This document shows, piece by piece, positions 2,124-41,817 of a stretch of 64,000 bases of DNA. The notes beneath the pieces are model-generated. The model made no database searches. It had not been told where the DNA came from and was given only the letters and a program-made list of their open reading frames with translations. Made by a program: the position numbers and the translations under genes. Each line of letters opens with the position of its first letter. Within the stretch, counting starts at the first letter, position 1. Origin of the DNA: Dictyophora rubrovolvata (Eukaryota; Basidiomycota; Agaricomycetes; Phallales; Phallaceae); assembly GCA_029959195.1 (NCBI GenBank), contig CP114117.1, positions 558,001 through 622,000 on the forward strand, in the 5' to 3' direction.

Positions 2124-3088
2124 TCAATCGATGATAGAAACCTGTGCATGACCATATCCGTATGTATTATCATAAATATCTTCATCTGAATCGTAGTTAG
2201 AGAACTCTTCGTTCATATCATCGGGATCGTCCAGTTCGGGACAATGTTGGTGTGATACGCCCAGTTGGCCATTTTGAATTTGCCAAGTCAAGCCGTACCT
2301 GGAAGAACCGGGATTCATATGCCACATAAACATATGGAAGTTTAGGAATGACGTACTCGTCAGGGTACTTGGGAGGATCTTGGACACCAAGTGCTTTCGC
2401 TATCTTTCGGATCTTTGTATGTCTCTGTAGGTTCTCAACTAGTGAGAAAAGGATCATGAAAAAGAATTTTGTATCATGGTAATCACCCCGACGATTAGAA
2501 TATTAAACAAAGTTGCTGGAGTTTGAGCAGCGGATTTCTGTAGTTTTTTAACCCGTTTAGCCACACATTTTGCATCACCAGCACCACTGTTGAAAAAGCA
2601 TGAAAAAGACTTTTTAATGGTAAAAAATAACACATACCAGTGCGAATCAATTTTCAAGTCGAGTGCTTTTGCAAGGGGCTTGACGGTATCTATAGACCTG
2701 GAACTTTTAACACGGCCATGGCCTGGTGCTGCGACTATATAGCTTATATTCATTCCTGAATGAGGTCCAAATAACTGAAAGGCATGCGTCAGTCAAGTCA
2801 AAGCAATTAAAAAAAACCGAACCCAACAAAGCGCACGTTTAGAATGCATTGTGCTCGTTTGCGGCCCAAACAAGATAGACCTTGCCTACCGTCTTCCGGT
2901 TTCTCGCCATGTCGAATGATGTAGACAATACTGTTGGAATTCTTGGTGTTGAGTTCGTTTGTATCTGGAAGTGTTTCGAACTCGGATCTACCATGATCAC
3001 GTTCGTAATTTACGACGGTATGCAAAGACCATGTCAGAAGAATAGAAAACAAGGGCCACGAGAGAAAGACAAGGAAAAACCGAGACAT
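2124..3088 (-). CDS. histidine phosphatase (phosphoglycerate-mutase-like) family protein
   Basis: The N-terminus MSRFFLVFLSWPLFSILLTW is a signal anchor or signal peptide. Around residue 55 comes IVYIIRHGEKPED, the histidine-phosphatase RHG motif with the phospho-accepting His. Later exons encode a GMNISYIVAAPGHGR stretch, SRSIDTVKPLAKALDL and a C-terminal part IRKIAKALGVQDPPKYPDE, then YGLTWQIQNG and HCPELDD. This is the layout of an uncharacterised fungal branch of the superfamily that lacks a known substrate. About five short introns; the last one (about 2307-2366) restores the frame PDE-YGLTW. The acidic tail DSDEDIYDN is unusual. The substrate cannot be told from the sequence. Met 3088 is preferred over Met 3100 because it starts directly before the hydrophobic segment. 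Confidence 0.75.
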
Positions 3089-3100
3089 AATTATTTCCAA

Positions 3101-3662
3101 GCAAGTGGACGTGTTAGGGTAGGTCTACTAGTACATATATGAAACAGCATTAAGCGGGGCACGGTATTAGCGATGACGAAAAGAGCAAGCCGCTATGAGC
3201 GCTAAAGTTAGTAACTCTAAAACGAACACCGAAGACTTGGCACATGTAACCCCCTCAGTACAAGCTCAATATGTACTCTGTTGCACAAGGTCAAGCATGT
3301 CCTTATGCACATACTGAGGTCGTGTCGACATGAGCGCTGCAATCTTCATACATTCTCGCCCTCGGACCCTCGAACAACATTTCAAATACGGAGACGGACT
3401 CCAGACACATCCTGCAAAACGGACACGGAAATCAATGTAATTATTGTGTAATTACGATGGTTCAGAACAAGCGCCAAGTATCCAATTTAGCAAGAGCAAA
3501 AATAAAATTTTCTATGCGACGTCGGTTTTCGGTCACCGGCCTTAGGAAATGATGATTTAGCCAAAAATAAATTTTTTTTCCACAGGACTATAGAAATAAC
3601 ACCACGGCCAATAAGCCTATGATTTGTGAATCATAATTTCTCACCGCAACCTACCAGTTCTC
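3101..3662. other. divergent intergenic region
   Basis: No ORF with support. It separates the minus-strand histidine phosphatase from the plus-strand dehydrogenase, so it probably holds both promoters. It contains A/T-rich tracts but no clear TATA box that I would annotate. Confidence 0.4.
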
Positions 3663-5288
3663 ATGACAGGTAAACCCATTCATTTTTTGTTGCGGTATGA
3701 AGAGTAGTTTTTTTTTCATGCCATAACCTGCATCAGATTCGGATCTCTCCATCACATCACTATTCAACGTGAAAGGCAAAGTTGGTTAGTATTTGCCATT
3801 TCATTTTTCCACCGCTCACTTGACAATGCAATGTTCAGCTGTCGTCACTGGCGGCGGATCAGGTATTGGGACAATGATTACTAGCGCGCTCGTTCAGAAT
3901 GGAGCGAAGGTGTACATTGCATCTAGAACAGAATCTCAACTCAAAGAGGTATGTATTTTAAAAAGAAAAACATCACTGCTCCGACATCCGCCGACAAATC
4001 CAATCCCATGCTCGAAAGGTTGCCGATGCTCTAAACAAACGAGGACCCGGAACATGTTATTATATCATTGCAGACCTGAGCGTTAGTACTTCAAACCAGG
4101 ATTCTTTCCCGTTCTTTTTTCCCATAATTCAAAAGTCCAAAACAGGCTGCGAGCAACTGGCCAACGCTATCAAAGAGAGGGAACAGAAGATCCATATCTT
4201 GGTCAATAATGCTGGTATGGCATGGGGCGCGACTTTGGAAGAGTACGATTAATTCTGTTTCCTTACATGGCATGGTGTTGGTTCAATTGAATATATATTA
4301 GATTCCAGGAAATGGAAGGATGGGACTACCTCATGGCTGTGAATGTAAAATCAGTATTTTACTGTACGGTGGTTAATCTATCATCCCAAGCTACAAGAAT
4401 TAACCTCACCCCGATTTTACAAGTAACACGAGCGTAATATTTGTGTTATTTTCTAATCTTTTCTCCTCACGACGATAACATGAGAAATATAGATTAACGG
4501 ACTTACTGGCCAAAAATTCCAATAATCAAGATCCCGCGCGTGTTATTAACATTTCGTCCATTGCAGCGTTTGCACCTCGCGTTGAAGGAAACATGACGGC
4601 CCCCGACGGTTATGGAACATGGAGCTGTAAGAGCTTTTCCTAGTACTAGATACGATTTCTTTGATCAACATTTGCAACCCAGATGCCGCGAGTAAAGCAG
4701 CAGGCAGGCAACATCTCTCGTGATCTCGATGAACTGCTTCATCAATGATCATGTTTATAGTCAATCATCTAACCATGAGCTTGGCAACAACATTGACTAA
4801 AAAGTTCATCACGTGTGTTATAGTTGTTTCGTAGCAATGGGTCATTTGAGTTAAAAACATTGCAGAGTTAACGCGATATGCCCAGGGTAAGTCTAAAGAA
4901 CACATTGTACTCAGTCCAAAAACAGAATTTCAGCTTGAGACCTTTTAATACAGAATATTTCAATCCAAAATGACCGCTTGGGCATTCCAGACAAGAGGCG
5001 AGGAATATATGATTACCGGTCAACCTACGGGTGAGCGCAGTAGTACCCTCTATACATATATGTCAATAGTAGTACTGAGAGATAAACAGGACGCCTTGGA
5101 ACACCAAAAGACATAGCTGGAACAAGTAAGTCTCAAACACGAGCCTGCGCAGTCTACCTTGACGAAAGCGGATCTCCTTTTTAGTCCTATTTCTCGTGAG
5201 CCCCGCATCGGCTCATGTGACAGGGGTACATATCGCTTTGGACGGTGGTAAGTTGATATCTACAGGAGGTCCGGGGCCAAAATTGTAG
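3663..5288 (+). CDS. short-chain dehydrogenase/reductase (SDR)
   Basis: Classical SDR, NAD(P)-dependent oxidoreductase. Spliced reading gives MTDSDLS...KGKVAVVTGGGSGIGT (Rossmann TGxxxGIG motif), ILVNNAGMAWG (NNAG), VINISSIAAFAP (catalytic Ser region), SYAASKAAVNHLTMSL (catalytic YxxxK), VNAICPGIFQSKMTAW and a C-terminal HVTGVHIALDGG. Exon 1 is only 7 nt (3663-3669: ATGACAG) and about ten introns interrupt the gene. The catalytic Tyr codon is itself split by an intron. The intron 4704-4760 starts with GC, not GT; only this junction gives AAVNHLT. The 3' end reads straight through a possible 18-nt intron to a stop at 5286-5288. Resembles fungal RhlG/3-oxoacyl-reductase-like SDRs, but the substrate is unknown. 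Confidence 0.85.
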
Positions 5289-5669
5289 TGCCAAAGTTAT
5301 ACATACCCATATACTATATGTTTATCTGGGTGAATGGGGATTATTCATTATTGCAATATGGAGCATATATAGTCTGGGCGTTGTTCTTAATTCATAAAAG
5401 ACACTAACGATCACTGTAGTATGCGCTTCCTGCGTGCGATGTTAGATTTTAGGATGTATTTAGGCTGATTGGGGATATCTGGCGTCAGGTTTGAATCCAG
5501 TAACGGTGCGGTTTATGACGTCTGTGGCAAGTTCATTGGGTTCAAACTTGGGATACATGCTATTGCCTCGCTCTGGAGAGAATGGCAACACGTCGGGCTT
5601 CAGGTGGGGAAGCTTCTGAAGACTGTAAGATGTCAATTCCATAATCCCCTTTCTTTTTGAGTCCTCGTC
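5289..5669. other. gene-free spacer
   Basis: Short overlapping ORFs on both strands at 5460-5660 have no recognisable motif and no splice logic; I see no gene here. Confidence 0.4.
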
Positions 5670-6330
5670 GGAAGGAGAAAGAATAACACCAGGACGATAA
5701 AGGTGAGGAGATACTGTCTATCTCGAGAAAATACCATGAACAAGAAGTTATTACTTGAGTATAATTCAAAGTTGTGTTCAATCCACTTCCGAGTCTAGTC
5801 AGAAACGGAGTGTAAGAGTTGTCCGGGTAAGAGACGGCGGACGAATATGGTGGCTTCAGCCCACTGTTGTTGATATTCAAGTTGGCAAGTTCAGCCTTTT
5901 TTCTAATGCTTATACTTAGTCGATCCAGGATAGCCGGAAACCAAGTTTCGGGTGAGTAGACCGGACTTGGCATGCAAGTTGTCACTCACAATGTTGATAT
6001 AAATACATAAATATTTATTATGAGTAATAAGTGAACTAGCAAGATCACTGATGAGTGTGAATACCAATTATAGTATACTGTTAATCCCACTGACGATATA
6101 GTCCGTTCTCTGTTTTGAGGGATCTTGAGAGGACCAAAAACTAATAAAGGTATTGGTTACATCTGCAAAAACAGTTCCTAGCTGTTTGTCCACATCCTTT
6201 GGAGGAAAAGAGGTGCATGAATGTGAGTGGAGTCTAGCGTTCCTCAGATATAATCAAAAAACATACCGGAGCAAATCCGCCACTGATGAATACGTCCATT
6301 TTCTGTTTATAAATCATCGTCATTAAGGAT
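5670..6330 (-). pseudogene. truncated copy of the 3' part of the secreted-protein gene at 42.5-44.4 kb
   Basis: The reverse complement aligns with 44205-44790. The shared block begins with the short exon ending in Pro, continues through its intron (CCGGTATGTTTT, then ATATCTGAGGAACGCTAGAC), the last exon starting GATGTGGAC, and about 390 bp of 3' flank including a stretch encoding SIRKKAELANLN versus SIRKKAGLANIN. Introns are kept, so this was a DNA-level duplication and not retroposition. The 5' exons (signal peptide and first modules) are missing upstream of 6330. Probably a dead paralogue. Confidence 0.65.
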
Positions 6331-6452
6331 TACTATTAATAGCTTGTCGCAAAAATCCTTATAATGCATTATAAACCTAAAAAAGGTTGTCAGACGCCGA
6401 GGGGGTTTATAATTGGTTTATAATCATTTCAAGGCTCCAATAAACCGCCAGC
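6331..6452. other. AT-rich spacer with palindrome
   Basis: Short spacer holding TTATAATGCATTATAA, a perfect 16-bp palindrome near 6360-6376, and a second partly related TTTATAATTGG stretch. No gene. Confidence 0.35.
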
Positions 6453-7108
6453 TGTTACGTACGGTGGCCCGAAGCTATTCCGGATAGTTCCGAAGAAGTC
6501 CGGACCACGGGGTCAGACAGGAAACGGAGTACTGAAGTACGGGGTGAGGGACTTGGCTTCAACTTATATGTTGCGCCCACTTGCCCAGCTTACAATATCC
6601 CTCGATTTCGGAATACGAGGAAGTATGCAAGTACGTACAAGTCCGACGACATGTGATACGACGACAGAGTACAAGTCCACGTCGTTGAAGACGACATGAA
6701 CGATAAGTACGAGTTGACTCGAACGTTAAGTCCGAGTCAACTACACAATATGGATTAAGAGTACGAGACAGATTAGAGATGAGAGAGTAACTGATTAAAC
6801 TGATTATATTCAGACTGAGGATCCACAGCTGGGGAGCTGGGGTTTAAATACAGGAAGGAGCAGAACTACGGAAATGGGGATAACAACAAATAAGGAAAGG
6901 TGGAAACTGACTAGTGCGAGCCAAGATGATGATAATATAATCTAGGTACCTTGTTACTAAGTGCACGGGACAGAATTCCCCATAAGGAAATTCTGTGATA
7001 CGGGGTACGGACAAGAACGTGGAGTGCGGAATCGGGGGAGTGGGATGGAATAGAGTACGGAGTTCGGATATGTCCAGATTTAGACTACGGGGCACACGGG
7101 GCATGACA
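6453..7108 (+). mobile_element. LTR-like element, family A copy 1 (solo)
   Basis: Starts TGTTACGTACGG and ends GGGGCATGACA, matching the target-duplication-bounded family A copies. It carries the family hallmark GGCTTCAACTTATATGTTGC and a TATA-like GGTTTAAATACAGG. The 5-bp flanks (CCAGC and GGATC) do not match, so it has probably been through ectopic recombination. Very similar to the copies at 21406 and 26698, which suggests recent activity. No internal retroelement region is attached. Confidence 0.8.
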
Positions 7109-7483
7109 GGATCCTAAGCAAAATATATTCTAGGAATAATACTAACTCACCTAGAGGGAGGGGATCCTAAGAGAATAAACTTAGGGATCCCTCCTCTAGG
7201 GCTACTAACTATATACTATGAAAAATGGCAAAGGCCACATGCAGCCTTTGGTTTGTGGACTGGGCGCAGATACGCACTGGTCCCGGACTTTTAGCTGGGG
7301 CCTAGGCCATGGCTCTGATGAGAATGGGCACTCAGCGCCCGTTGAAGGGAAAATGGGAATATGGAAGGAGAGGGAAACGCAAGAGATGGGATAGAATACA
7401 AGAAATATGGAAATAAATAAAATAGACCAGAACTGAAGATAAATGTAGGAAAATAAGGGGACGACGCTAGCATACTCTGACAT
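7109..7483 (+). mobile_element. family C element, 5'-truncated fragment
   Basis: Matches the family C copy at 22414-23350 in reverse complement, from GGATCCTAAGC to the terminal ACTCTGACA. The first about 34 bp are missing at the junction with the family A copy. It keeps the central GGGCCTAGGCC-containing block that is interrupted in the other full copy. Confidence 0.7.
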
Positions 7484-8927
7484 GTGCCCTGAGTTGCCAT
7501 AACAGGTATACTGAGCAGGCTTCAACTTATGTGTTGCGCCACTTACTTGTACGTGCTCAGTAATTTGCTTCACAACACTCCGCGAATAGCAGATATATCG
7601 GTCAGAGGTTCGGGATAGAGTTTGGAGTGAGTGTTATGTATGGTGGCCCGAGGTTATTCCAGATAGTTCCGGAGAAGTCCGGACTGCTGGGTATGACGGG
7701 GGACAGAGTACTGAAGTACAGGGTGAGGGACTTGGCTTCAACTTATATGTTGCGCCCACTCGCCCAGCTTACGATATCCCTCGATTTTGGAATATGAGGA
7801 AGTATGCAAGTATGTATGAGTCTGACGACGTGTGATATGATGACGGAGTACAAGTCCACATCGTCTTTGATGACATGAATGACAAGTATGAGTTGACTCA
7901 AACGTTAAGTCCAAGCCAACTATGCAAATTAAGAGTATGAGACAGACTAGAGATGAGAGAATAACTGATTATATTCAGACTGAGGAACCCCAGCTGTAAG
8001 CTGGGGGTTTAAATACAGGAGGGAGCGGAACTACGGGAATGGGGATAATGACAAATAAGGAAAGGTAGGGTAGACTAGTACGAGCTGGAGGCGATGCCAA
8101 TATAATCTGGGTACCTTATTACTAAGTGATAAGGATACATATCTCCATAAGGAAAATGTTTGATACGGAATACGGATTAAATACGGGTCTCGGAGTTCAA
8201 GGGGTAAACAGGGTACAGAGTACGGAGTTTGGGGTAGTCCGGGTTTGGACTGCGGGGCACGTGGGGCGTGACAGTGAGTCTGGGTTTAGTGGTCAGATTT
8301 TAGAGATAAAAGAATCAAACAAGAATAGCCACAAGTCAGATGACTAGTTTGATTTCAGAACTGAGGAACTAGATACATGATTCAGGGTTATTTATACTAT
8401 GGGAATGTACTAGTTTGTCAGCACTGATAAAAGCAGTTTACAATAACATGCATTTGGAATACAATGAAACAATAAAAACAAATATGGAAAGAGTGGATTT
8501 AGAATACAATCAGTTATTGTATTCTAATTTGGGTAATTCGGATTTAATGGATTATTTTGGAGCAAACATAAACATAACAGATGACATAAGTTTTCATAAT
8601 CTTTGGAGTCGTAATTTGGAGTAATATCGGATCAGTGGGTTTATCGGCAGATCTGGATCTTGACACCGACTTGAAAATGAATGAAGTCCTGAGTTTATAT
8701 GGGAACCTGATCTTGTGCACAGACCATCCTCTTTTTTGTGCGATTCAAGACATTCAGAGATTAGCCGATGAATGAGTTTTTAGCCGATCACAACTCAGGT
8801 GAAGTTGCAGGGCATTCGTTGGAGATGTTACGTGCCAGAATGCGTGTATGAAGTTTGGTGAGGTTAGTGCGAGAGGTAAACAGTAGGCTTCAACTTGCTC
8901 TTGAGTTGCGCCCTCACTGTGCACGTC
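7484..8927 (+). mobile_element. relic of a further LTR-like sequence, distantly related to family A
   Basis: Apart from the inserted family A copy (7632-8273), this stretch repeats LTR-type hallmarks: GGCTTCAACTTATGTGTTGC near 7517 and again GGCTTCAACTTGCTCTTGAG near 8886, plus GAACTGAGGAAC...TTTATACTATGGG, which parallels the GACTGAGGATCC...TTTAAATACAGG order in family A. Boundaries are not resolved and no coding capacity is visible. Old and decayed. Confidence 0.4.
7632..8273 (+). mobile_element. LTR-like element, family A copy 2 (solo)
   Basis: TGTTATGTATGG to GGGGCGTGACA, 642 bp, flanked on both sides by GTGAG (7627-7631 and 8274-8278), an exact 5-bp target duplication. This defines the family ends. 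More diverged from copies 1, 3 and 5 than they are from each other, so it is older. Confidence 0.88.
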
Positions 8928-9790: not shown

Positions 9791-10564
9791 GCATCCATTA
9801 ACTTCAAGTTGCGTGGTTCAGATGACACATTATGATGTCGTTGCACGGGCAATGGGAGAATGCGTGGTATGACCACGTTGCACGATGAATACAAGGGTTT
9901 TGACGACATCGTTCCCAACATTGAGACAAAGGTTTAAGATTTTGAGATGAAATGTCGGCGGCGTCTGCGACACTGCCCGTGATGAAGCGAGAGGTTAAGA
10001 AGAAGAGAAGGTGTTTCAAAGAAGCTCGGTGTAACAAGTAACAAGGCGAAACTTCTATTGATATCAGAATGGAAAAGTAGATACATTAAATCGATCCTTT
10101 TATAGAAATGAAATGTGATGACAAATACGAAAAAGGATGACATGGACAAGTTTGGAAACAGCAACTTCGGGAAGTTGCCCAATAGGGAACGAGCAGAGTT
10201 TCGGGAAGTTAAGCGAGGTTACGTACGCACTAAGCGGGTGTAACAGGAGAAGGGACCTGAAAATAAAGGCACAGGGGAGAAAACTAAGCTCTATACATCG
10301 TGAGATTGAAAATAAATGCAAAATTAATTCCACATTGGGTAAATAAACCTGATTTGAATTATAAACCCCTTTTGATTTTTGTGACAGTCTAGTATTGAAG
10401 TTAAACTATCTCACACCAAACCCTGATGCTACATTTGAGAGCAATGCCTGCAAACTGCTGGAATCACTAGTACTGAGATTAAATATAACATTTGAATGTT
10501 GATTCAACTTGATGATGGTGTCATTAAGACTGAGGAGGAGTGGCATGATACCCTTATCAACAAG
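9791..10564. other. gene-free repeat-island sequence
   Basis: No supported gene. A 216-bp block 10030-10245 has TGTAACA at both ends and a TATA-like CTTTTATAG on the way, so it may be a small LTR-like relic on the minus strand, but no target duplication supports this. Confidence 0.3.
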
Positions 10565-10901
10565 TGTCAGGGCTACTCACTCAGACTAGAGGGAGGGGAT
10601 CCTAAGAGAACAAACTTAAAGATCCCCCTTCTAGGGCTACTAACTATATACTATGAAAAACAGTGAAGGTCGTACGTGACCCTTGGTTCATGGACTGGGC
10701 ACAGACACATGCCAGTCCTGGACTTTAGCTGGGGCCTAGGCCACGGTGCTGATGGGAATGGGCACTCAGTGCCTGTTGTTGCATACCAAAACCTTTCTCA
10801 TTTGGTGATTAGGCTGCTTATCCAAAGCGGACATTCAAATCCTCCCTTCCTAGAAAGTGACTATCAACTTACCCAAATTCCCTTATTCAAATAACAATAA
10901 A

Positions 10902-11351
10902 ATGTTCAATCTTCGTCTCTCATCCACATTCACAATTAGAAATCCTACCTCTTCCCCAGAAGATGTTATCCCTCCGATATTTCGTTATATTCATGATAGT
11001 CCTCGTACTCATGATCTGGATATCAAGACTACATTATTCACTTATTATTCCCCGATGCCTATCCTCCAAATTGACCCTACGACTCTTCTCCCAGTCTACT
11101 CGCACAAGGTTCCTAGAAGTATCCATAAATGTCGAAGTTCAGATATCGTACATCCCTTCTTGGCATTCGGAAGAGAAGTCTACATCGAGAAGGAACTAAG
11201 ATGGTTTACAGTAACTCATATTTATTCTATGCCAGAATCAGCCTTACAAGATTCATACCGTGTCTGGTTAACGACACAAGTTGGGTTAGAATACATGATA
11301 ATGGTTCTGGACATTCATAGTCAATGGATCCTATCATCATGCAATCACTAA
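10902..11351 (+). CDS. ORF1 of two-ORF unit, copy A (unknown protein)
   Basis: Unrecognised family. Matches ORF1 of copy B in the order LDIKTTLFTYYS / LDTQYYIYFTSY, then ILQIDPTTLLPVYS / HLNLDPSTLLPLYP, a WFTVTHIYSMPE / WFVVVNMYTIHI segment, and a final VLDIHSQWI / VFDVPCSWI. No transmembrane helix, signal peptide or known catalytic motif. Rich in Ser/Thr/Pro at the start. A Met at 10857 extends the frame by 15 residues; 10902 is the position that matches copy B. Part of a mobile element that is likely decayed. Confidence 0.45.
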   Translation: MFNLRLSSTFTIRNPTSSPEDVIPPIFRYIHDSPRTHDLDIKTTLFTYYSPMPILQIDPTTLLPVYSHKVPRSIHKCRSSDIVHPFLAFGREVYIEKELRWFTVTHIYSMPESALQDSYRVWLTTQVGLEYMIMVLDIHSQWILSSCNH

Positions 11352-11657
11352 CCGGTCTTAGGATTCTATCGACCTGCCAATCCCCTTCCCAAAGAACCAA
11401 CAAACTCTTCGTCTAACCATAATTCACTTCCCCTATCTCTGACTTCTTCTGATTTAACAATACGCCCTCCTCGATATCAACAAACAATCCGCACTCTTCG
11501 ACGTGTTTGTTCTGGATTTCTAGAACGAGCTTGATCAGTTTGGAACATAATAAAGAACAAAAATAATGTATAAGGGTAAACATCTATTTTAATCATCTGG
11601 TCTCTTTTTATTTCGGAGTTCCAAGTTTCTTCAGCCTTACTCTATCCCTTCACTACC

Positions 11658-12185
11658 ATGATGATCGACCTCACAGCCTCTTACACTATGGCATCATCCA
11701 ATCGCCCACATGGCAATTTCAAAACGGTCATACAAGAATATGTCCTCCGCCGAAAAGGACTAATCAATGTCAACGAAGAAACCTTGTTACCCTTTCATGA
11801 TGGGTACATCCAACATACACTCTACTACAATGATTTAAGGTTACCGCCAATACTTTGTTTATATGATCAATATCATATCAGAGTAAAGGGACATTCATAT
11901 GAACTTGCAGCATATCTACAGATGCATCGAGATGGACAGCTAGCATGGCGACTCATCTTCCAACGATCTGTGCTTTTAGCCAGACAAGTCCTATTCCTTG
12001 ATGCCCCTTTAGACGTGTTCCCGTACCCTCCCAGTTTCTATTCTAACCCTCCCAATCCCCTTACTCCATCCCCTCACTACGAGGCAACTAATTCAGTAAC
12101 ATTTTATTTGCCGACGACTAGACAACCTCGACCGATGGAAGAAGAGGATGTACGACTCATAAAGAGGAGAAGAATAAGAGATTAA
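11658..12185 (+). CDS. ORF2 of two-ORF unit, copy A (unknown protein)
   Basis: Unrecognised 175-aa protein. It shares with ORF2 of copy B the segments HSYELAAYLQMHR / HSYELVWICQFHR, AWRLIFQRSVLL / VWQFIFHRPLLY and VLFLDAPLDVF / FLFMDAPTNVI. It also shares an NEETLLPFH motif with the IDPTTLLPVY motif of ORF1, pointing to an old duplication between the two ORFs. The tail is Pro-rich, then strongly basic (LIKRRRIRD), suggesting nucleic-acid or nuclear association. A CT-rich stretch precedes the ATG, as in fungal promoters. An alternative start is Met 11661 or 11688. Confidence 0.5.
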   Translation: MMIDLTASYTMASSNRPHGNFKTVIQEYVLRRKGLINVNEETLLPFHDGYIQHTLYYNDLRLPPILCLYDQYHIRVKGHSYELAAYLQMHRDGQLAWRLIFQRSVLLARQVLFLDAPLDVFPYPPSFYSNPPNPLTPSPHYEATNSVTFYLPTTRQPRPMEEEDVRLIKRRRIRD

Positions 12186-12426
12186 GGAAATGGAGAAATT
12201 GTTGCTGTGGCAGTATGGTGCGAAAATGGTAAAAAAAAAGGAGAGTATTGCTTTCTTCCAAATTGGGACTGTTTGTGTTTGTTGTACTTCTATTTCCTCC
12301 CTGAAAAATTCCTCGTCGCTTGTTGTTCTCCCCAAATGTAACTCTTCCTCTCTTTTTCTTCTTTCTTTTTCTTTTATTGTGTCATGAAAACGGTTTACAA
12401 TTGCTTATTGTTAAACCTCCTAAAAA

Positions 12427-12495
12427 TTCCAAAAATATTTCTTTTGTTCTAAATGGTATAAATACTGCATGTAAATACGTGTAACAGCAGCAATC
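12427..12495 (+). promoter_or_regulatory. conserved TATA block of two-ORF unit, copy A
   Basis: TATAAATACTGCATGTAAAT followed by GTAACAGCAGCAAT; nearly identical to 19125-19193 in copy B although the flanks have diverged. The conservation of a TATA box and probable start-site region fits a promoter that would drive transcription out of the unit to the right. Confidence 0.5.
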
Positions 12496-13108
12496 TACCG
12501 GAACGGTTGTCTCAAGTTTAGTTCAGTTTAAGTCAAGTTCAAGTCAAGTTTCATCTCTAGTCTATTTCTACGCTCACGTCTATTTCTTTGGATTACTCTG
12601 AGTGAGGCCTCGGAGTATAAACTCAACGATTCATATTGTCATTGAAGCCTTACTAACTTTAAACAGATTATCATCGCTGTATTATCGATGGCATATTGAC
12701 TCACCATTTTATTGCAACTCACATTTATCGTCCCCCTCACACACACACGATCTTAGGATCATCATATTTTTTGTTGTTGTTGGTTTTATATCGATGCACA
12801 CACACTTGCTAAATATCATATTATTCCCCCACCCTCCTTCTTATGAAATCAGCACCAGGACCCACTCCACGGAGACTAGACGGCCTCAAACAAAATATCT
12901 TCGTAGTTTTTCCGATTGTATATATAGCTACGACATTTAGCTATTATCTTCGGATTGTTACACTGTTCAAGAGAGAAAACAGAAAAACAGAGATAATGGG
13001 GAAAATGGGGAATGGGATATAATATGAGAAATGTGAGAATAAATAAAATAAATGAGAACTGATGATAAACATAGAGAAATAAGGAGATGGCACTAGTGTA
13101 CTCTGACA

Positions 13109-13639
13109 AATACGAGATGTTTCTTACCCTCCCTACTTCCCTTGTAGCATTTGAGCAATCATTTAATATGTTCTGAAATACAATGAGGTTTTTAGACAGT
13201 ACATAAATAACCTAACTTTATTAATGACTTACTTGTACTTCTGTAATGAAACATTACAGATAGTGTAGCCCAGCTCTTACAGGTTCACAAGAAAACTGTA
13301 TATTCACAGGTAAACAGTAAGAAAGGCTGCTGGCACCTACAATCTAGTGAAATATCTTCCTTCGTGGCTTCCGGGTGTAAAGTTTCGACAAGTGGCCGAG
13401 AAATAAATAGAGACTTTCAAGCACGCTAAATGTTCCATACAAATACTCCAAAAAAGCTTTTGTAAGTTATGTATGATTCATTTTACCAGTTTTTCAGAAG
13501 AAGTGCATAGAAACAAGGGAAGCTTGAACCTTGCTTTGTGTCAAACAAACTACTTGGAAAATTCTGCGAATTCACCCCATTCATCATCTGATGCTAAATA
13601 GGTAGTTCACGATACTTTATTTAGCAGGAATTAACACAG
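13109..13639. other. gene-free sequence
   Basis: AT-rich, no supported ORF or repeat found. Confidence 0.35.
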
Positions 13640-14473
13640 TAATCAATCTTTCTAAGGAAAGGACCTTGAGTGATTTATCGACTAAAGCCATATAGCTGGA
13701 GGTTCAGATGTGTTTGTTTTTTTTTGGCAATGGCACTTTACCCCGATGTCCAGGAAGAGCTGGATAAGGTTGTTGGGAGAGATAATTTACCTTCTTTCAG
13801 TGATCTTCCCAATCTCCCATATCTCACTGACACACTTGGAAATGAATTGTCACGATGGCATGCTGTGGCTCCGATGGTAGCATCACACCAATTGAAACAA
13901 TATGATGTGATAAATGGGTATTTCATACCTAAAGGAACTAATTGCTTTGGAAATACTTTGGTGAGTTCACATCTTACATCGGTGTTTTTTCAAATTATGT
14001 AATTTCCAAACTTGATTAGGTTTTTCTTCCACTCTGAGAAAGAGTATGGGCCTGAGACCGATAAATTCAGGCCAGAAGGGTTTTTAGATGGTAGTGCTAA
14101 ACTGAAACCAGACTTTGCGTTTGGATACAGAAGATGGTAAGACTGGATGTGACATTGAGATATACTTATACCGCTCAGTCTCAAAATCCCAATTTTAGGG
14201 TGTGCCCCGGCAAAGCATTGGTAGAAAATATCCTCAGCATCATGGTTGCCACCATTTTACATGTTGCAAATGTTTCCGAGCTTGAAGACAAGCTGTTGGC
14301 TGATATTATCAAAAATAACGAATTTTTACTAGGAAGCACTTTGTAAATAATTTGGTTTCATTTATGCTGTATTTTCTTTTTTTTTTTGTAGACGTCCACA
14401 AGATTTCAGGTGTCGAATTGACACGCGACTGGATGTTCAGAACATTTTGAATCAATTTCATACATCTGATTGA
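13640..14473 (+). pseudogene. cytochrome P450 C-terminal fragment
   Basis: Covers only the C-terminal third of a P450. Visible: FFLAMALYPDVQEELDKVVG, the K-helix ExxR as ELSRWHAVAPM, GYFIPKGT, YGPETDKFRPEGFLDG, and the heme loop spliced across an intron as FGYRRWVCPGKA, then LRPQDFRCRI and a stop at 14473. The heme loop consensus FGxGxRxCxG has lost a Gly and the Arg, and everything before the I-helix is missing, so the gene is dead. It lies just outside the left end of the 13-kb transposon. Confidence 0.75.
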
Positions 14474-14749
14474 ATCAAAGGGTGTTTCTATGGTTGTCAA
14501 TGAGAGAGATTATGTGAAGAGTCACTAACATAGTTGCGAATTTGAGTAGTACTCAGTGTTTCCTTTCATCCTTTTGTCTAGAGAATCATATCCTGTTCCT
14601 GCTTATTATAAAATAATAACTTTCACAAGTGCAACCAAAGTGAATAGCAACAAAGAAATCGATTTTCAAAATCGAAACAGACATATTTGATACAAGATTG
14701 GAATGACTAGTTACTACAATTGAGAGTCTGCCTTTTTTCTATGCAAAAT

Positions 14750-14783
14750 ATAATAGTGTCCCACGACTGTCCATAAGCATCCC
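14750..14783 (+). repeat. left terminal inverted repeat of the 13-kb DNA transposon
   Basis: Begins ATAATAGTGTCCCACGACTG and continues TCCATAAGCATCCC. The reverse complement of 27964-27997 reads ATAATAGTGTCCCGCGACTG then TCCATAAGCGTCCA: 31 of 34 positions agree. No convincing target duplication found outside the ends. Confidence 0.65.
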
Positions 14784-14832
14784 ATGACTGTCCATAAGCA
14801 TCCCATGACTGTCCATAAGCATCCCGTGACTA
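14757..14832 (+). repeat. 21-bp subterminal tandem repeat
   Basis: Unit CCCATGACTGTCCATAAGCAT, about 3.5 copies, derived from the terminal inverted repeat itself. Repeated subterminal motifs are typical transposase-binding sites in large DNA transposons. Confidence 0.75.
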
Positions 14833-15660
14833 TCAGTAACAGTTGTGCTCTTCAGCCACATCAGTCCCTGCAATCAACCTTTACGGTCTCCAATCCCTGA
14901 CCCTTTCCTGTCTCCAACCCTGAACACATTCAGTCTCAGGTATGCAACCTTTCTCGTCCCTTAAGTTCCATGCAATTAACCATTTTAGTTGCAATCTTCA
15001 ACCATTTTCGTCACACCTGGGAAGCATAGCCGTCCCATCTTTTGAACCATTTCCGTCCCAACTTTCAATATCTTGACATTCTCTCGATGGATTTGGATAG
15101 TTGTTAGTTTAATAGAGAGCTATTTATTAAGGTAATTTGGGAAAATTATTTAGGAAGCGTGAAACATGTGGTTTTTGGTGTATTTACCATAATTTAAATA
15201 TACCACGCAGTTGCACCTTCAGCTTCATCCAATCCTATTTCTGTTTGAGATATGAGTGATCCATGATTCTAGAACACAATGTCCATGGAAAATCTGCGAC
15301 CCTGCGGCCTTAGATTGTTCAAGCAAGCAATATTGTATATGCATTACCACTCAGCTTATACCCAGCCGGGATTGCTTGCGCTGAAGTATACATGACTGTT
15401 TATCTATAAAGCGGTTTCCCAGGCTACTCATATTTGATTTCTCTAATCCTCTTGTATAGACCCATTCCCCTCTCACATGTTCCATGCCTTGGTTGTGTCA
15501 TCAAACCATCTACTCACAGTGAGTCCACTAACCATTGCATTATTGTTCATAAATCAAAATGGCTTACTTCTATCAGTTCTTGGAGAATATGTGCAAGCAT
15601 TGACATCCTATAATTCCGCGGTTAGAAATCACAGGTTAGAAAGGTGAGTACTATCTATAC
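14833..15660. other. transposon left arm without recognised gene
   Basis: Contains loosely repeated phrases of the CGTCCC / CAACCATTTT type near 14880-15070 (imperfect subterminal repeats) and otherwise no supported ORF. Confidence 0.4.
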
Positions 15661-16143
15661 TCACAATTGTTTTGCTTGCTCATGATGATTATCAGCCGGG
15701 TTTCCATGGAACGTCCACCCTGTCAAATTCCTGTTATCGTTGACTTTTATTTCAAGGAAAATTTGAGATTCAGGATCAATTGGGGTGAAGGTAACTTGAC
15801 TTGGACCCGCAAAAGGGCTGGAAGGCGTAATGCCGGCAATGTTGTTGTTGCTGGTCATGGTGGGCTTATGCTGATGTGGACTGATTGGACTGGCAAACTG
15901 ACTAGAGGAAACACTGTTGACCATCAGCATCTCACTGACCTTGCTTGTTGAGAAGGAATCAGACTCGAGGTCAGAAAAGAGATTTGTTGACTCAGTCTCG
16001 TTGGAAATTACAATGGTTGAGCCAGTCTTGTCAGAAATCGCAATGGTTGAGTCCAACTCATTATCAGAAATTATAATTGTTGAGTCCGAATATACTTGGA
16101 CACTGCTTCTAACCTTTAAACGTAGTTTGAAAAATATCAACAT
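15661..16143 (-). CDS. low-complexity ORF in the transposon left arm
   Basis: A 160-aa open frame of unknown function. The N-terminal half has a repeated STIIISDNE / STIAISDKT / STIVISNET pattern (Ser/Thr/Ile/Asp-rich, about 15-residue period), the middle is SPFAGPSQVTF, and the end is LTGWTFHGNP. It is long for chance in AT-rich sequence and its internal repeat is at protein and DNA level, but no known domain is visible. It might be an accessory transposon protein or part of an exon on this strand. Confidence 0.35.
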   Translation of the reverse strand: MLIFFKLRLKVRSSVQVYSDSTIIISDNELDSTIAISDKTGSTIVISNETESTNLFSDLESDSFSTSKVSEMLMVNSVSSSQFASPISPHQHKPTMTSNNNIAGITPSSPFAGPSQVTFTPIDPESQIFLEIKVNDNRNLTGWTFHGNPADNHHEQAKQL

Positions 16144-17039
16144 CGCGACACATTAATAACATCAGAGGAATGCTCACTGGAGTCATATTCTGGCTCAACG
16201 TATTCAAATATTGTCAAGGGAAAGGTGAGTGCGAATTAGTTTGGCATGGGTAATTGCAAACATTGATTATTATAAGGTGGTTTTTCGGAATTCGGTATGG
16301 ATGCAGATCCTGATCACTGAACATGCTCAATGTTCTATTCAACATGCCACATTAATTTCCGCTCATCGTAATTGCATACACAAGGCATTTCGGGCATAAT
16401 ACGTTTGTGTCCTTGTTAAGAGGGCTGTTCTCCGGTTGATGTATGCCTGTTTAAAAGGGTGGTCAGCGAATTTTACATAACCTTTATTATATATCATATA
16501 TTACAGCACATGTTTTCAGGTTGACTTTGCAGAATGTGTTCAAAATCCTAGTCATGTGGTATATTCCAGGGCTTAGAAATTTGTTGCACGGGCAGTGAGG
16601 TCACAATCTTCGTATTGGTGTGATCCATTCCTTGTTTTTTTCCCAAGAGGCACTGTTTGTTTCTTTTTTTAGATAAATCAAGTTTACATAAATCTCCGTG
16701 ATTCGCATACCCTGCTGAATGTCCGACATGATACCTGACACGTGTTCAGCATCGGAATTGTTTAACACCGCTTAAGACCATGAGGCATTTCTGCCCTGGA
16801 GAGGTCTTGATCGTCCATACCACATGAGTTGCGGTGAGTTTAGTTACTTTGTTCTTTTGCATGGACTTAGAATATTACAGATTTTTTTCATCTCTTCTTA
16901 TGGTCCGCTATCCCATTACTATGCCACATCAACAACAATGCCCTTTCTCAAACCATTTGACCCTGATAATGGCCTACCAGTTTATATGTGCGATTTTTGG
17001 TATGTGTATTTCGTATAACTTCCTCTGCTCTCTTTATTC
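16144..17039. other. transposon arm, no supported gene
   Basis: Only short overlapping frames; a PFLKPFDPDNGLPVYMCDFW stretch near 16940-17000 may be a remnant of a transposon exon but cannot be placed. Confidence 0.3.
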
Positions 17040-17231
17040 ATGACAAGCAAAGAGTCTTCTGAACTCAATGAAACTGTTGCTAGAGGACGTCCTCCAGGCA
17101 GACCCCGCAAGCAATATCGTATAAGTGGACAGAAGGCTGCAAATCTCTCTCTAACGAGGCTGTCATTGGAGTCGCTATCCATTCCATCGCCGAGTATACC
17201 GATGTCGCGCACCAAAATCTATATTTGGTAA
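17040..17231 (+). CDS. short ORF with AT-hook motif
   Basis: 63 aa with RGRPPGRPRK at residues 15-24, a textbook AT-hook (minor-groove binding) core. The rest is Ser-rich. It may be one exon of a transposon protein whose other exons were separated by the insertion that starts shortly downstream. Too short to assign. Confidence 0.35.
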   Translation: MTSKESSELNETVARGRPPGRPRKQYRISGQKAANLSLTRLSLESLSIPSPSIPMSRTKIYIW

Positions 17232-17365
17232 AAATTAGGGTAAATGTTCTGAAGATTCCCTAATCCCACGATATGTCCCTCGGAGCTTGAATTCACTTTT
17301 GCAACTACCCAAAACCCACGTCCAAAACATTTTTTTTTTATCCCAAAAACATTGATACAAAAGAT

Positions 17366-18034
17366 ATGTCCTCACTCCAGATTCACTCTTCTCGTTCCCT
17401 GCTGTCCCTTCACACTCCTTCTATCGATGACTCTGATTGTTTTCGTTTTGTCCCTCCTACTCCTGATGTCAATCTCTGTGATTTGGACACTCAGTACTAC
17501 ATCTACTTCACATCCTATGCGCACCTCAACCTCGATCCCTCCACTTTATTACCACTATACCCGAACCCTATTATTATCGGTCGACATAAAGCTTCGGATC
17601 TGATCTCGTATTCAGATGCGGGCGATAAGAAGGTTTCTTTTGGAATACGATTATGGTTAGAAGGATATGAAGAATGGTTCGTTGTGGTGAATATGTACAC
17701 AATTCACATAGGTCTACTGAACACGGTTACTAGGATATGGGCTACTGCTGAACACGGACATGCATTCTGGCACATTGTATTTGATGTCCCTTGTTCATGG
17801 ATCCGTCGTCGATATCAGCACATGCCAGAACCTGAATTTTTCCTTCCTTTCTACGATTCTGGTACTCCACAATTTCCCATGACTCCAAAACCTCCTATCT
17901 CCACCTTTGATCCTCCCACCAAACCTTCATCACCTTCTTTTCATCCTACAACTCCTGTTTCTACTGTCCCCAAGTTACATCGGCTTTGGAAATTCTGTTC
18001 GGCTATATTTAAGACATCTGAGATAACGCTATAG
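17366..18034 (+). CDS. ORF1 of two-ORF unit, copy B (unknown protein)
   Basis: 222 aa, longer than the open part in copy A. Core motifs: LDPSTLLPLYP near residue 57, EEWFVVVNMYTIHIG near 103, HAFWHIVFDVPCSWIRRR near 135. Then a Pro/Ser/Thr-rich linker and a basic end KLHRLWKFCSAIF. Soluble-looking, no known domain. The ATG follows a poly-T/AT-rich leader, 9 nt after a GATACAAAAG context typical of fungal starts. Homology to copy A ORF1 is clear at protein level but weak at DNA level, so the two copies diverged long ago while keeping the protein, which hints at past selection. Confidence 0.55.
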   Translation: MSSLQIHSSRSLLSLHTPSIDDSDCFRFVPPTPDVNLCDLDTQYYIYFTSYAHLNLDPSTLLPLYPNPIIIGRHKASDLISYSDAGDKKVSFGIRLWLEGYEEWFVVVNMYTIHIGLLNTVTRIWATAEHGHAFWHIVFDVPCSWIRRRYQHMPEPEFFLPFYDSGTPQFPMTPKPPISTFDPPTKPSSPSFHPTTPVSTVPKLHRLWKFCSAIFKTSEITL

Positions 18035-18178
18035 GAAGTACTTCATTTGAATAATCAGGACTAATTAAAACGAAAAACAAGGACTTCTTTATTTTTTTTA
18101 TTCCCCTCTTTTGTTGTCTCATTTCTTTTCTTTTGGAGTCTAAATTAATTCCACCCTTTCTTATCCTTCTCTTCCATC

Positions 18179-18760
18179 ATGAGCCTCATACAACCTCTTG
18201 GCTACGAATCACTTGCCCCCACTTCCTTCCTTCCTTACCCCTTTTATCCTTTCACAGGGATAACTTTGGACGAACGATATGCCAACTTTGAATCAACAAT
18301 ACAGATTTATCGCATCTCTGGTACAAACATCGAGGTAGACAGAAGTACGTTATGGCTGCATTCTCTAGTCCCCATTCAAGAATACCAGGTACCCTACGAG
18401 AAACTGGAATTCCCAGAGAATCCAAAAGTGAACGAAATAATCCATATTAACATACTCGCTCATTCATATGAATTGGTTTGGATTTGCCAGTTTCATCGTA
18501 GCAAACAACCTGTTTGGCAGTTCATATTCCATCGACCACTTCTTTATCATGATGAATTTCTTTTCATGGATGCTCCCACTAATGTGATCGACAATCATCC
18601 TGCCCCTGACTACTGTCCGCTAGAGGTTGATACTTCCCAACCGCTTCCCGAGTACCTTGAGCGGAGACCTTTAGTTCCGTACGATTGGAGCTCTTTAACA
18701 AGAGTTCAACAACGAAATACGCGGATACATATGGCAGTGGCAAACGCACATCGTTTCTGA
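18179..18760 (+). CDS. ORF2 of two-ORF unit, copy B (unknown protein)
   Basis: 193 aa. Shares HSYELVWICQFHR, VWQFIFHRPLL and FLFMDAPTNV with copy A ORF2; the first half is aromatic and Pro-rich (LPYPFYPFTGI). No signal peptide, membrane helix or catalytic motif seen. It starts 145 nt after the ORF1 stop behind a CT-rich leader (CCTTCTCTTCCATC), so each ORF probably has its own promoter. Confidence 0.55.
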   Translation: MSLIQPLGYESLAPTSFLPYPFYPFTGITLDERYANFESTIQIYRISGTNIEVDRSTLWLHSLVPIQEYQVPYEKLEFPENPKVNEIIHINILAHSYELVWICQFHRSKQPVWQFIFHRPLLYHDEFLFMDAPTNVIDNHPAPDYCPLEVDTSQPLPEYLERRPLVPYDWSSLTRVQQRNTRIHMAVANAHRF

Positions 18761-19124
18761 GGTTAAAGGAAGGAGATGAAGATCGAAATCTGAGGCTGTG
18801 AAGCGCTTATCAATGGTGATGTCTATTTTTGGAAAAATTAGTAAGGATGAATAAAATGACCTCCTATTCTCATTGTTTCCTTTCTTGTTTGCTCCTTTTT
18901 CTTTCCTTTTGTACTTGTATTGATTCTAAATCCATTCTTTTGTGTTGCTCCTTTCTTTCTTTTTGTTTTGTCATCACCTTGAAATTCTTTTGTTCGCTCT
19001 TTATAATAGTATAGTCTCACTGACTCATATGCCCCTTTTTTTTTATTTACTTGCTTTTCTCTTTGTTTCTTTTCTTCCTTATTACAAATCCAGCTCACAA
19101 TTACTAATTGTGTTGCCACTCAAA

Positions 19125-19193
19125 GCCCAAAAACATTCTTATTGTTCCAAAACGTATAAATACTGTATGTAAATACCTGTAACAGCAGCAATA
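19125..19193 (+). promoter_or_regulatory. conserved TATA block of two-ORF unit, copy B
   Basis: TATAAATACTGTATGTAAAT then GTAACAGCAGCAAT, matching 12427-12495 at nearly every base. Confidence 0.5.
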
Positions 19194-19560
19194 CCTACGT
19201 TGGTTTGACTCAAGTTTAAGTTTGTGGTTTTTGTTTAGTGTTTTTGGTTTTGCCTCTTGTCTATCTCTATGCTCACGTCTTTACCTTTGGAAAACTCTGA
19301 GACCGTACATTTCGGAGTATAAACTTGCGATCTGAGTTATCATGATTATCATACTTTGCCTCACAAGCAACCCTTGATTTGTTAACAGTAACTGTCTTTT
19401 GGTTGTTGTTGTTTGTTGTTGTTTCCATCACCTCCCCCTTTTTATTTCGCACTAAGCAGCACCTGGACTCGCTCCGTGGAGATTGACTACCTCACTCATT
19501 CTTTTCTTGTGTATTTCACTAGGCATATTATCTTTCCTTTTGTGCATAGTGAAGCTTACA

Positions 19561-20782
19561 CCAAGTATGGTTTTTTATCTTCCATCTCCCATTCCTCATT
19601 CATTCCACTAACAATCAGTATTCTCTGCAGCTGGGCCTTTGTCATATCCCTCAGAATCATCAACCCCATCCATTAATGTTTCTACTAAACCAACACTCTC
19701 TGATATTGAAGTTCTTTCAACGCAGATTGAAATGCAATGACATGCATCGCATTCATGTTGGTTGCAGCCAGCAACCTTGTCCAACAATTCCCGCTTCTTC
19801 TTAAATGCACACAAGCATTCCACTGAATGGTAAGAGGTGGCAGTAGTCCACACCTTGGACCTAGTGTACTGGTTCGATATGCAGGTAAATTAATTAATTA
19901 ATTCAGTTTATGGGATTCTGAATATGGTCTGTTTGTATCAAGATGAATGACTATGGTCGTGCACGGTGGTCAAGCAGTGACCTGATTACCTTTGAATGGT
20001 TCAGACACCCTGGAGATAGTCCTCTAGCTGCGAACACTTGGTGATTCCTCGTTCATTGGGTTGAACCTTCTCCTCTTAGTGATGAAGGCCTGAAAAAAGC
20101 TGTCCTCGCCAAAAAGATTGTATACCGATGGAAATATCATTGCATTGGGACATGTTCTCTAGTCTCACCTACCCCAAACTGTCATGTATTTCATGATTTC
20201 CTCTCTTATCTATCCAAAAACAAGTATTTCCTTTATTCTTTTTTTAGTTCCTGCTTGCTTTAATAATCCTTTATTTGTAATGTATCTTATCTTTCAGGAA
20301 CAGTCAGATGACTTAGTTCCAGGAACCCCTTTATTTTCTTATCATTTCTCTCCACTTCCCTGTCTCACTATAATTTTCCCTGATTCACTATTATTCATTC
20401 ACTTCCTTTTTAAGTAATTTCTTATCTTTCACATGATGTTTCTCTTACTAATGTTTGGAGCTATTTGTACTTGCTCAAGGTGTATAAATAGGGGCTCATT
20501 TTTCTTGTAAATAATCTATCTTGTAACTACTGTTGTGCACCAAAGTGCTTACCAATCAAATTGGTCTTTTTTCCTCTTATCTTTCTCTATTCTCAAGGAC
20601 TTAGTAATAAGTCTCTATCTATCTCTACTAATTTGAACTTAATTCTTAAGTTCAATTCTTCCTTCAAGTGTCTCACCTTCAATAACAGGACTTTTAGTTG
20701 CTGAACAATCCCTAAACAAAACTCTTTTATATTTTATTAGGAGTCAAGTTTATTCTAAATCTAAAACAAATCCCTTACACAA
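19561..20782. mobile_element. transposon interior with an LTR-promoter-like relic
   Basis: At 20476-20695 a TATAAATAGGGG box is followed by TTGTAACTACTGTTGTGCACC and a stretch ending CACCTTCAATAACA, which reads like the promoter and U5 side of another LTR and is loosely similar to the TATA block of the two-ORF units. No partner end or target duplication found. A frame near 19970-20160 (TFEWFRHPGDSPLAANTW, then GLKKAVLAKKIVYRW) may be a decayed transposon exon. Confidence 0.35.
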
Positions 20783-41022: not shown

Positions 41023-41655
41023 TTGGGATTTTTTGCTAATAGAAAAGACTCCTTGATAGATTCTCGAATCTGAGCTGTAATCTGAAAAAAGGGCTGTATA
41101 CGCTCCGGATTCCTATGCCTCTGTTGTACCGTGGTTTTGGATGCGACAAGCGATGACCCCGGGTCAGCTACGACAAAAATAATCCGCAGCACATTACCTC
41201 GGTTGTAAGTCCAATGTCAACCGGCCACGATGGTACGCGCTCGCCCCGGTCATGGCGGGGAGACATGCCGAGACGAGGCTGCGGCTGATGGCGGCGATGG
41301 CGTTGAGAAGGTATGTACTGCCACTACCTCTTTGTCATCGTCCTCGGAACATCTGATATCACACAGCATCCTTTTGGTCTACCTACGTGACAATGTTCCT
41401 CTCTTTTTTGGGCCAACCCTCACAAAGCACCATCAGACCGTTCCATCTTTCCCGAATGAGAATAATCGACTACAGGTGGCAGTGGAAACTGACTTCCCTA
41501 CAGCAGCTGATCTGAACCTTGACACTCTGACCTGGCCCAGTCAGAACCTGTCAGTCTGAGTATATACCAACTCTGTAAGATAGGATTCGTGCGTCCTTAC
41601 GTAATTGTCACAAGTAGCTGTAGTTTTGAAGTACCTGTGTAAAAAATATATACCG
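41023..41655. other. spacer with an unassigned ORF
   Basis: A 109-aa frame at 41230-41559 starts in a GC-rich patch (RPGHGGETCRDEAAADGGDG) unlike its AT-rich surroundings and ends with TDFPTAADLNLDTLTW. No family, no intron signal that improves it; probably not a gene. Confidence 0.3.
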
Positions 41656-41817
41656 CTAATCCCTAAACCCTAACCTCTAAAGCCCTGATCTCTAAAACCC
41701 TAACTTCTAAAGCCCTAAATCCTAAAGCCCTAACCTCTAAAACCCTAATTTCTAAAGCCCTAGCCTCTAAAGCCCTAATCCCTAATCCCTAACCTCTAAA
41801 CGCCCTAAACCCTAAAT
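41656..41817. repeat. interstitial telomere-like array
   Basis: About 160 bp of degenerate CCCTAA-type units (CCCTAAACCCTAACCTC, TAAAGCCCTAA, TAATCCCTAATCCC). TTAGGG is the usual telomere repeat of agaricomycetes. Units alternate between 6 and about 14 bp, with an inserted CTCTAAAG, so the array is old. It may mark a former chromosome end, a fusion point or repair with telomerase. Confidence 0.8.

Follow-up and report, generated by a model that had tools for sequence, protein, structure and literature searches.

The analysed window, a stretch of 64,000 nucleotides belonging to a 28.24-Mb assembly of 11 contigs, contains a complete insertion, here called unit 1, with the following features (positions are those of the window):

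10777..12962, + strand: unit 1 (subfamily u1), complete 2186-bp insertion
10773..10776, no strand: target-site duplication CTGT, left copy
12963..12966, no strand: target-site duplication CTGT, right copy
10902..11351, + strand: ORF1 of unit 1, frame truncated by an in-frame stop at 11349-11351
11658..12185, + strand: ORF2 of unit 1, 175 aa, open
12457..12462, + strand: TATA box of unit 1, in a conserved core, near the start of the part shared with subfamily u3
12490..12962, + strand: tail of unit 1, R-U5-like, with a putative transcription start
7140..7482, + strand: empty site for unit 1, an uninterrupted host-repeat copy

Unit 1 begins with TGTTGC at 10777 and ends with TTACA at 12962. The discrete insertion proposed in an earlier note on this DNA was confirmed with both ends exact to the base, and the claimed CTGT duplication is present as 4 bp on either side. 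Joining the two flanks in a script yielded the sequence of uninterrupted host-repeat copies, e.g., the one at 7140-7482 of the window as well as those at many fetched loci, so that the proposed check for empty sites was positive. Both ORFs ascribed to the unit are present, although the first one is truncated.

A second unit is located further downstream in the window:

17203..19560, + strand: unit 2 (subfamily u2), complete 2358-bp insertion, flanks CCGA / CCAA
17366..18034, + strand: ORF1 of unit 2, 222 aa, open
18179..18760, + strand: ORF2 of unit 2, 193 aa, open
19155..19160, + strand: TATA box of unit 2

Since all 15 fetched u2 copies extend upstream of 17298, the start of unit 2, which reads TGTCGCGCACCAAAA, has to be placed at 17203. 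The second copy at 17298-19560 described previously therefore needs correction, both in its start and in its assignment, as it belongs to another subfamily, and its flanks CCGA and CCAA represent an imperfect duplication. Both units are members of a larger family. A 22-mer of the 5′ end matched 125 genome sites with up to three mismatches (reversed-pattern control, 1) and a 24-mer of the 3′ end matched 108 sites (control, 0), numbers which are not explained by chance. From 99 5′ ends and 100 3′ ends listed, at least 64 complete units with lengths of 2184-2697 bp could be paired. Searches with unit 1 yielded 10 near-complete copies (the window copy counted) among 62 matches and searches with unit 2 yielded 23 copies spanning the full 2263-bp query among 57 matches, while for a third subfamily, u3, near-complete copies account for 36 of the 40 places scored. 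The youngest copies are up to 99.9% identical. Matches of 516 bp were considered as short solo tails, an idea that was dropped when the eight fetched ones turned out to be complete u3 units.

Ends of the form TGTCGCGCACCAAAA...TTACA and N-CG-N targets are common to all three subfamilies. The 4-bp flanks were identical in 23 of the 44 units for which both flanks were in hand, had a C/T or G/A change in the central dinucleotide as their sole difference in a further 13, and were otherwise mismatched in eight (8/44). The central dinucleotide of the left flanks was CG in 35/44 cases, TG or CA in 8/44 and another one in 1/44; for the right flanks the corresponding values were 32/59, 26/59 and 1/59, against a dinucleotide background in the window of 4.1% for CG and 13.2% for TG and CA together. 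The CG-rich centers with a remainder of TG and CA imply that the duplications follow an NCGN pattern with subsequent CpG decay, and a CpG-centered target of this kind allows insertions to be tracked through that decay. TG...CA ends combined with a constant short target duplication, features by which solo LTRs are recognized, are thus present in the units, and no terminal inverted or direct repeats were found within a unit. Furthermore, no 5′-3′ end pair closer than 1.8 kb occurred among the 99 by 100 ends listed, as is expected for LTRs. Precise ends, target duplications, empty sites and unlike flanks contradict the view that the units are segmental duplicates of host genes and not a mobile element. 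This is very improbable, even though some copies lie within large inverted duplications such as the one at C1:875-900 kb (G000; partly L013, L014), which has three unit starts per arm.

Units typically carry the pair of ORF1 and ORF2. When the u3 proteins were used as queries, at least 151 (ORF1) and at least 150 (ORF2) genome matches were obtained, fragments included, and for 120 of the 150 ORF1 matches listed an ORF2 match followed 0.3-1.5 kb downstream. Both frames were open in 13 of the 39 units in hand, namely five u2 and eight u3 units and no u1 unit; among the nine u1 copies in hand, ORF1 was open in four and ORF2 in one (the window copy), with none having both. By eye, the in-frame stops in the ORF1 and ORF2 copies listed are mostly TGA, the codon expected where CGA has undergone CpG decay. 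In accordance with the earlier statement that the ORFs resemble no recognized family, a Pfam profile search with ORF1 and ORF2 gave nothing at E < 0.1 (best E 0.12, for one of seven ORF1 members), a search against the PDB gave no convincing match (best E 1), and a tblastn search of the ORF2 of unit 2 against phage sequences gave no match. Structure predictions made with two window sequences each reached mean pLDDT values of 40.5 and 37.2. Comparison of the two proteins with each other by hhalign aligned 57 columns (E 0.00031, score 32.4, probability 39.5%), the best score among 20 column shuffles being 19.4, and this alignment makes a distant paralogy of ORF1 and ORF2 probable.

Mean pS/pN values for ORF1 were 0.68/0.36 between u1 and u3, 0.67/0.53 between u1 and u2, and 0.78/0.50 between u2 and u3, and the claim that the protein motifs are retained despite DNA divergence thus holds between families. 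Within families, the dN/dS comparison across copies suggested by the earlier note gave medians of 0.27-0.49, values that are biased downward as they derive from open frames alone (24/39 for ORF1 and 19/39 for ORF2), and codon-position counts within u2 were near even (51, 63 and 58 for ORF1; 74, 80 and 92 for ORF2). From the use of open frames and from these counts it follows that much of the within-family variation is decay after insertion. The case for selection on the ORFs draws mostly on the conservation seen between families.

A tolerant search located a 40-bp TATA core in the tail of each of the 39 units in hand, and in 37 of them no more than four positions deviate. In most u3 copies the core reads TATATATA. 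It reads outward, and its distance from the 3′ end is about 500 bp in u1 and u3 and 405-417 bp in u2. The TATA block had been described as kept almost base for base in the second unit; it is indeed common to both units, but at 85% identity over 71 nt. The core also marks a sharp boundary in sequence relationship. Over 72 pairs of u1 and u3 units, mean identity was 46.5% (42.0-54.9) upstream and 93.5% (86.3-98.2) downstream of it, while pairs of u1 with u2 and of u2 with u3 showed 48-49% upstream and 55% downstream. As a baseline, ten 338-bp pairs of unrelated sequence gave 36-49%. The degraded relative L096, in a comparison that left out one u3 row, was 73% identical to u2 upstream and 55% downstream, versus 48.6% upstream and 85.9% downstream to u1 (86-87% downstream to u1/u3). 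The u1/u3 division at the TATA core amounts to a module swap, and L096 shows another one. First-strand transfer between two RNAs predicts that U3 is derived from one molecule and R-U5 from the other, and swaps at the core accordingly allow RNA strand transfer to be tested at the level of sequence. Nevertheless, homologous recombination in the TATA core, the sole block in common, would yield the same swaps. As a separate observation on the tails, conserved blocks CGGAGTATAAAC ... CAGCACC flank a stretch of variable length (in a tail alignment without u3, 14/39 units being left out), and these blocks may correspond to a leader intron or to hairpins. An Rfam search of window positions 10500-20000 yielded nothing at E up to 1.

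With a probability of about 50%, the reading we regard as the most likely one is that the units are solo LTRs and derive from a retroelement with two genes in its U3. It is favored by the TG...CA ends, the CpG-centered 4-bp duplications, the recurring gene pair, the position of the TATA core and the swaps found there, and weakened by the lack of an LTR pair or inner region, by the 8/44 mismatched flank pairs and by the fact that recombination would explain the swaps as well. The LTR would then measure about 2.2-2.4 kb and be present as solo copies, with the upstream 1.65-1.95 kb corresponding to a U3 with two genes, followed by the TATA core and by a last part of 0.4-0.5 kb corresponding to R-U5. 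Copying would proceed through RNA, with the first strand transfer joining the U3 of one RNA to the R-U5 of another, and integration would be carried out by a Gypsy-type integrase. Recombination between the long repeats would subsequently remove one LTR together with the inner part, a collapse that would be fastest for an element having hardly any inner part. The two small proteins may regulate the copies of the element or help it in trans. The giant LTR with a protein-coding U3 considered in the earlier note agrees with the ends, duplications, TATA position and swaps, although no LTR pair was found; its proposal of a new class of gene-carrying repeat was not established. A protein-coding U3 is unusual, and solo LTRs are usually regarded as dead, non-coding remnants. 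If copies keep two protein genes, a solo LTR can remain a working gene locus, with possible roles in trans-acting help or in the control of the element's own copies. No such unit was described in the titles and abstract beginnings to which the literature survey extended, subscription papers and repeat databases lying outside its scope.

Several known systems share part of this anatomy. Like the units, Gypsy-type solo LTRs have TG...CA ends, short duplications and a TATA box followed by an R-U5-like part, and occur as single copies; in contrast to them, the units have two protein genes in U3 and CpG-centered targets, and no pair or inner region was found. MMTV, a retrovirus, encodes a protein, sag, within the U3 of its LTR and is in this respect a parallel to the units, with the differences that the host is another one and that one gene stands against two in the units. 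To our knowledge, TRIMs carry no protein genes. TRIMs such as Helenus resemble the units in being non-autonomous, with LTR-type ends and solo copies, but in Helenus two LTRs are retained together with PBS and PPT, and fungal Helenus duplications comprise 5 bp (PMC10886601). No arrangement of two LTRs enclosing a PBS and a PPT was seen for the units among the ends listed.

Given that copies are up to 99.9% identical, their parents should be recent. However, no full-length relative with two LTRs, PBS, PPT and gag-pol was found in this genome among the ends listed. The integrase core profile rve (PF00665) gave 69 genome matches, none of which (0/69) had a u1/u3 3′ end upstream and a 5′ end downstream on the same strand within 12 kb among the ends listed. 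When u2 ends were added, two of the 69 were bracketed, both at C8:730-743 kb between u2 and u3, and a pair of like units around an integrase match was again absent (0/69, ends listed). At least 16 pairs of neighboring complete units lay within 15 kb of each other among the ends listed, six direct and ten inverted. None of the six direct pairs listed was near-identical (closest, 90.9% DNA identity). The ORF1 identities of their members to one query were 95/46, 46/97, 98/83, 98/50, 99/81 and 93/99%, the last pair being 90.9% identical in DNA. This pair (L038) was rejected as an LTR element, given that identity and no frame longer than 151 aa between its units. The inverted pairs were likewise rejected as a composite element, as the members of the C7 pair each have their own flank pair. 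Besides the inverted duplication at C1:875-900 kb, inverted pairs of units with equal or near-equal score lie at C7:1931-1941 kb, C4:2490-2501 kb and C10:1383-1399 kb. Flanks matched between units in 9 of 946 5′-flank pairs and 6 of 1711 3′-flank pairs, and no common inner sequence adjoining the units was found in these comparisons. A lone pair aligned in register on either side and had identical duplications, which indicates a shared host-repeat site. L059/L060 and L083/L084 comprise two units at the same CCGT site of separate copies of one host repeat with both flanks in register, and unit 1 may sit at a site like theirs.

Since neither a full-length element nor paired LTRs were found, the non-autonomous gene-carrying unit that the earlier note had offered as its other option still stands, albeit without a partner and not as a DNA transposon proper. 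The 2.2-kb piece would in this case be the whole element, and the Gypsy- or Ginger-like integrase of another element would insert it in the form of linear or circular DNA. We rank this explanation second and consider it possible but doubtful. In its support, no paired LTRs were found among the ends listed, no common inner sequence was seen beside the units, all 60 exact 15-bp 5′ termini belong to units (59 through ORF matches, and the 60th, at C1:3242655, by coordinates as the start of a u2 unit interrupted by u3), and two near-identical neighbor copies have flanks of their own, CCGA/CCGA and CCGC/CTGC. In addition, five 5′ ends inspected by eye lack a common TATA upstream of ORF1. Under this explanation the outward promoter would drive ORF1 and ORF2 solely in a circle or tandem, for which the junction promoters of IS3-like circles are a parallel. 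Against it stand the LTR-type anatomy and the lack of a partner with the same end, as the 11-bp terminus without a following A (TGTCRCGCACCB) was found three times versus eight times for a reversed-pattern control. Lone 3′ ends were also considered as short LTRs of a partner; 12 of the 100 3′ ends listed had no upstream ORF match, and the three of these 12 that were fetched were two cut-off tails and one degraded chimera. A related and still less likely scenario would be a retroelement that exists solely as a single LTR-like two-gene unit, copied through RNA from circles or tandems that place the outward promoter before the genes, with a borrowed integrase inserting the copies at CpG sites.

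A cut-and-paste origin as a Ginger1-like DNA transposon derivative appears improbable. Ginger1 shares TGT...ACA ends and 4-bp CpG-centered duplications with the units, its own being CCGG or CCGT/ACGG, and it has terminal inverted repeats of 40-270 bp and a transposase that it encodes itself (PMC2836005). The units, in contrast, have neither inverted repeats nor a transposase, and their targets are broader (NCGN), with 9 of the 23 perfect duplications fitting CCGG, CCGT or ACGG. No Ginger1-type integrase-like transposase with a protease domain was found within a unit, internally deleted short copies were absent among the ends listed, and the 29 distinct host-repeat sequences across the site showed by eye no doubled 4-bp footprint. 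The lack of terminal inverted repeats, transposase and short deletion derivatives among the ends listed disfavors a DNA transposon proper in general.

Besides the units, some further elements were noticed. A u1 copy at L017 contains, at positions 2694-7532, a 4.8-kb LTR element with a 1437-aa frame, identical LTRs of 219 bp and a short duplication, which is presumably of the Copia type. In the window, a degenerate tandem array of 15-bp, CCCTAA-like, telomere-like units is located at 41643-41807, and broken frames are found at 13670-14346, between units 1 and 2, which we take, on the basis of a motif, to resemble a cytochrome P450 gene.
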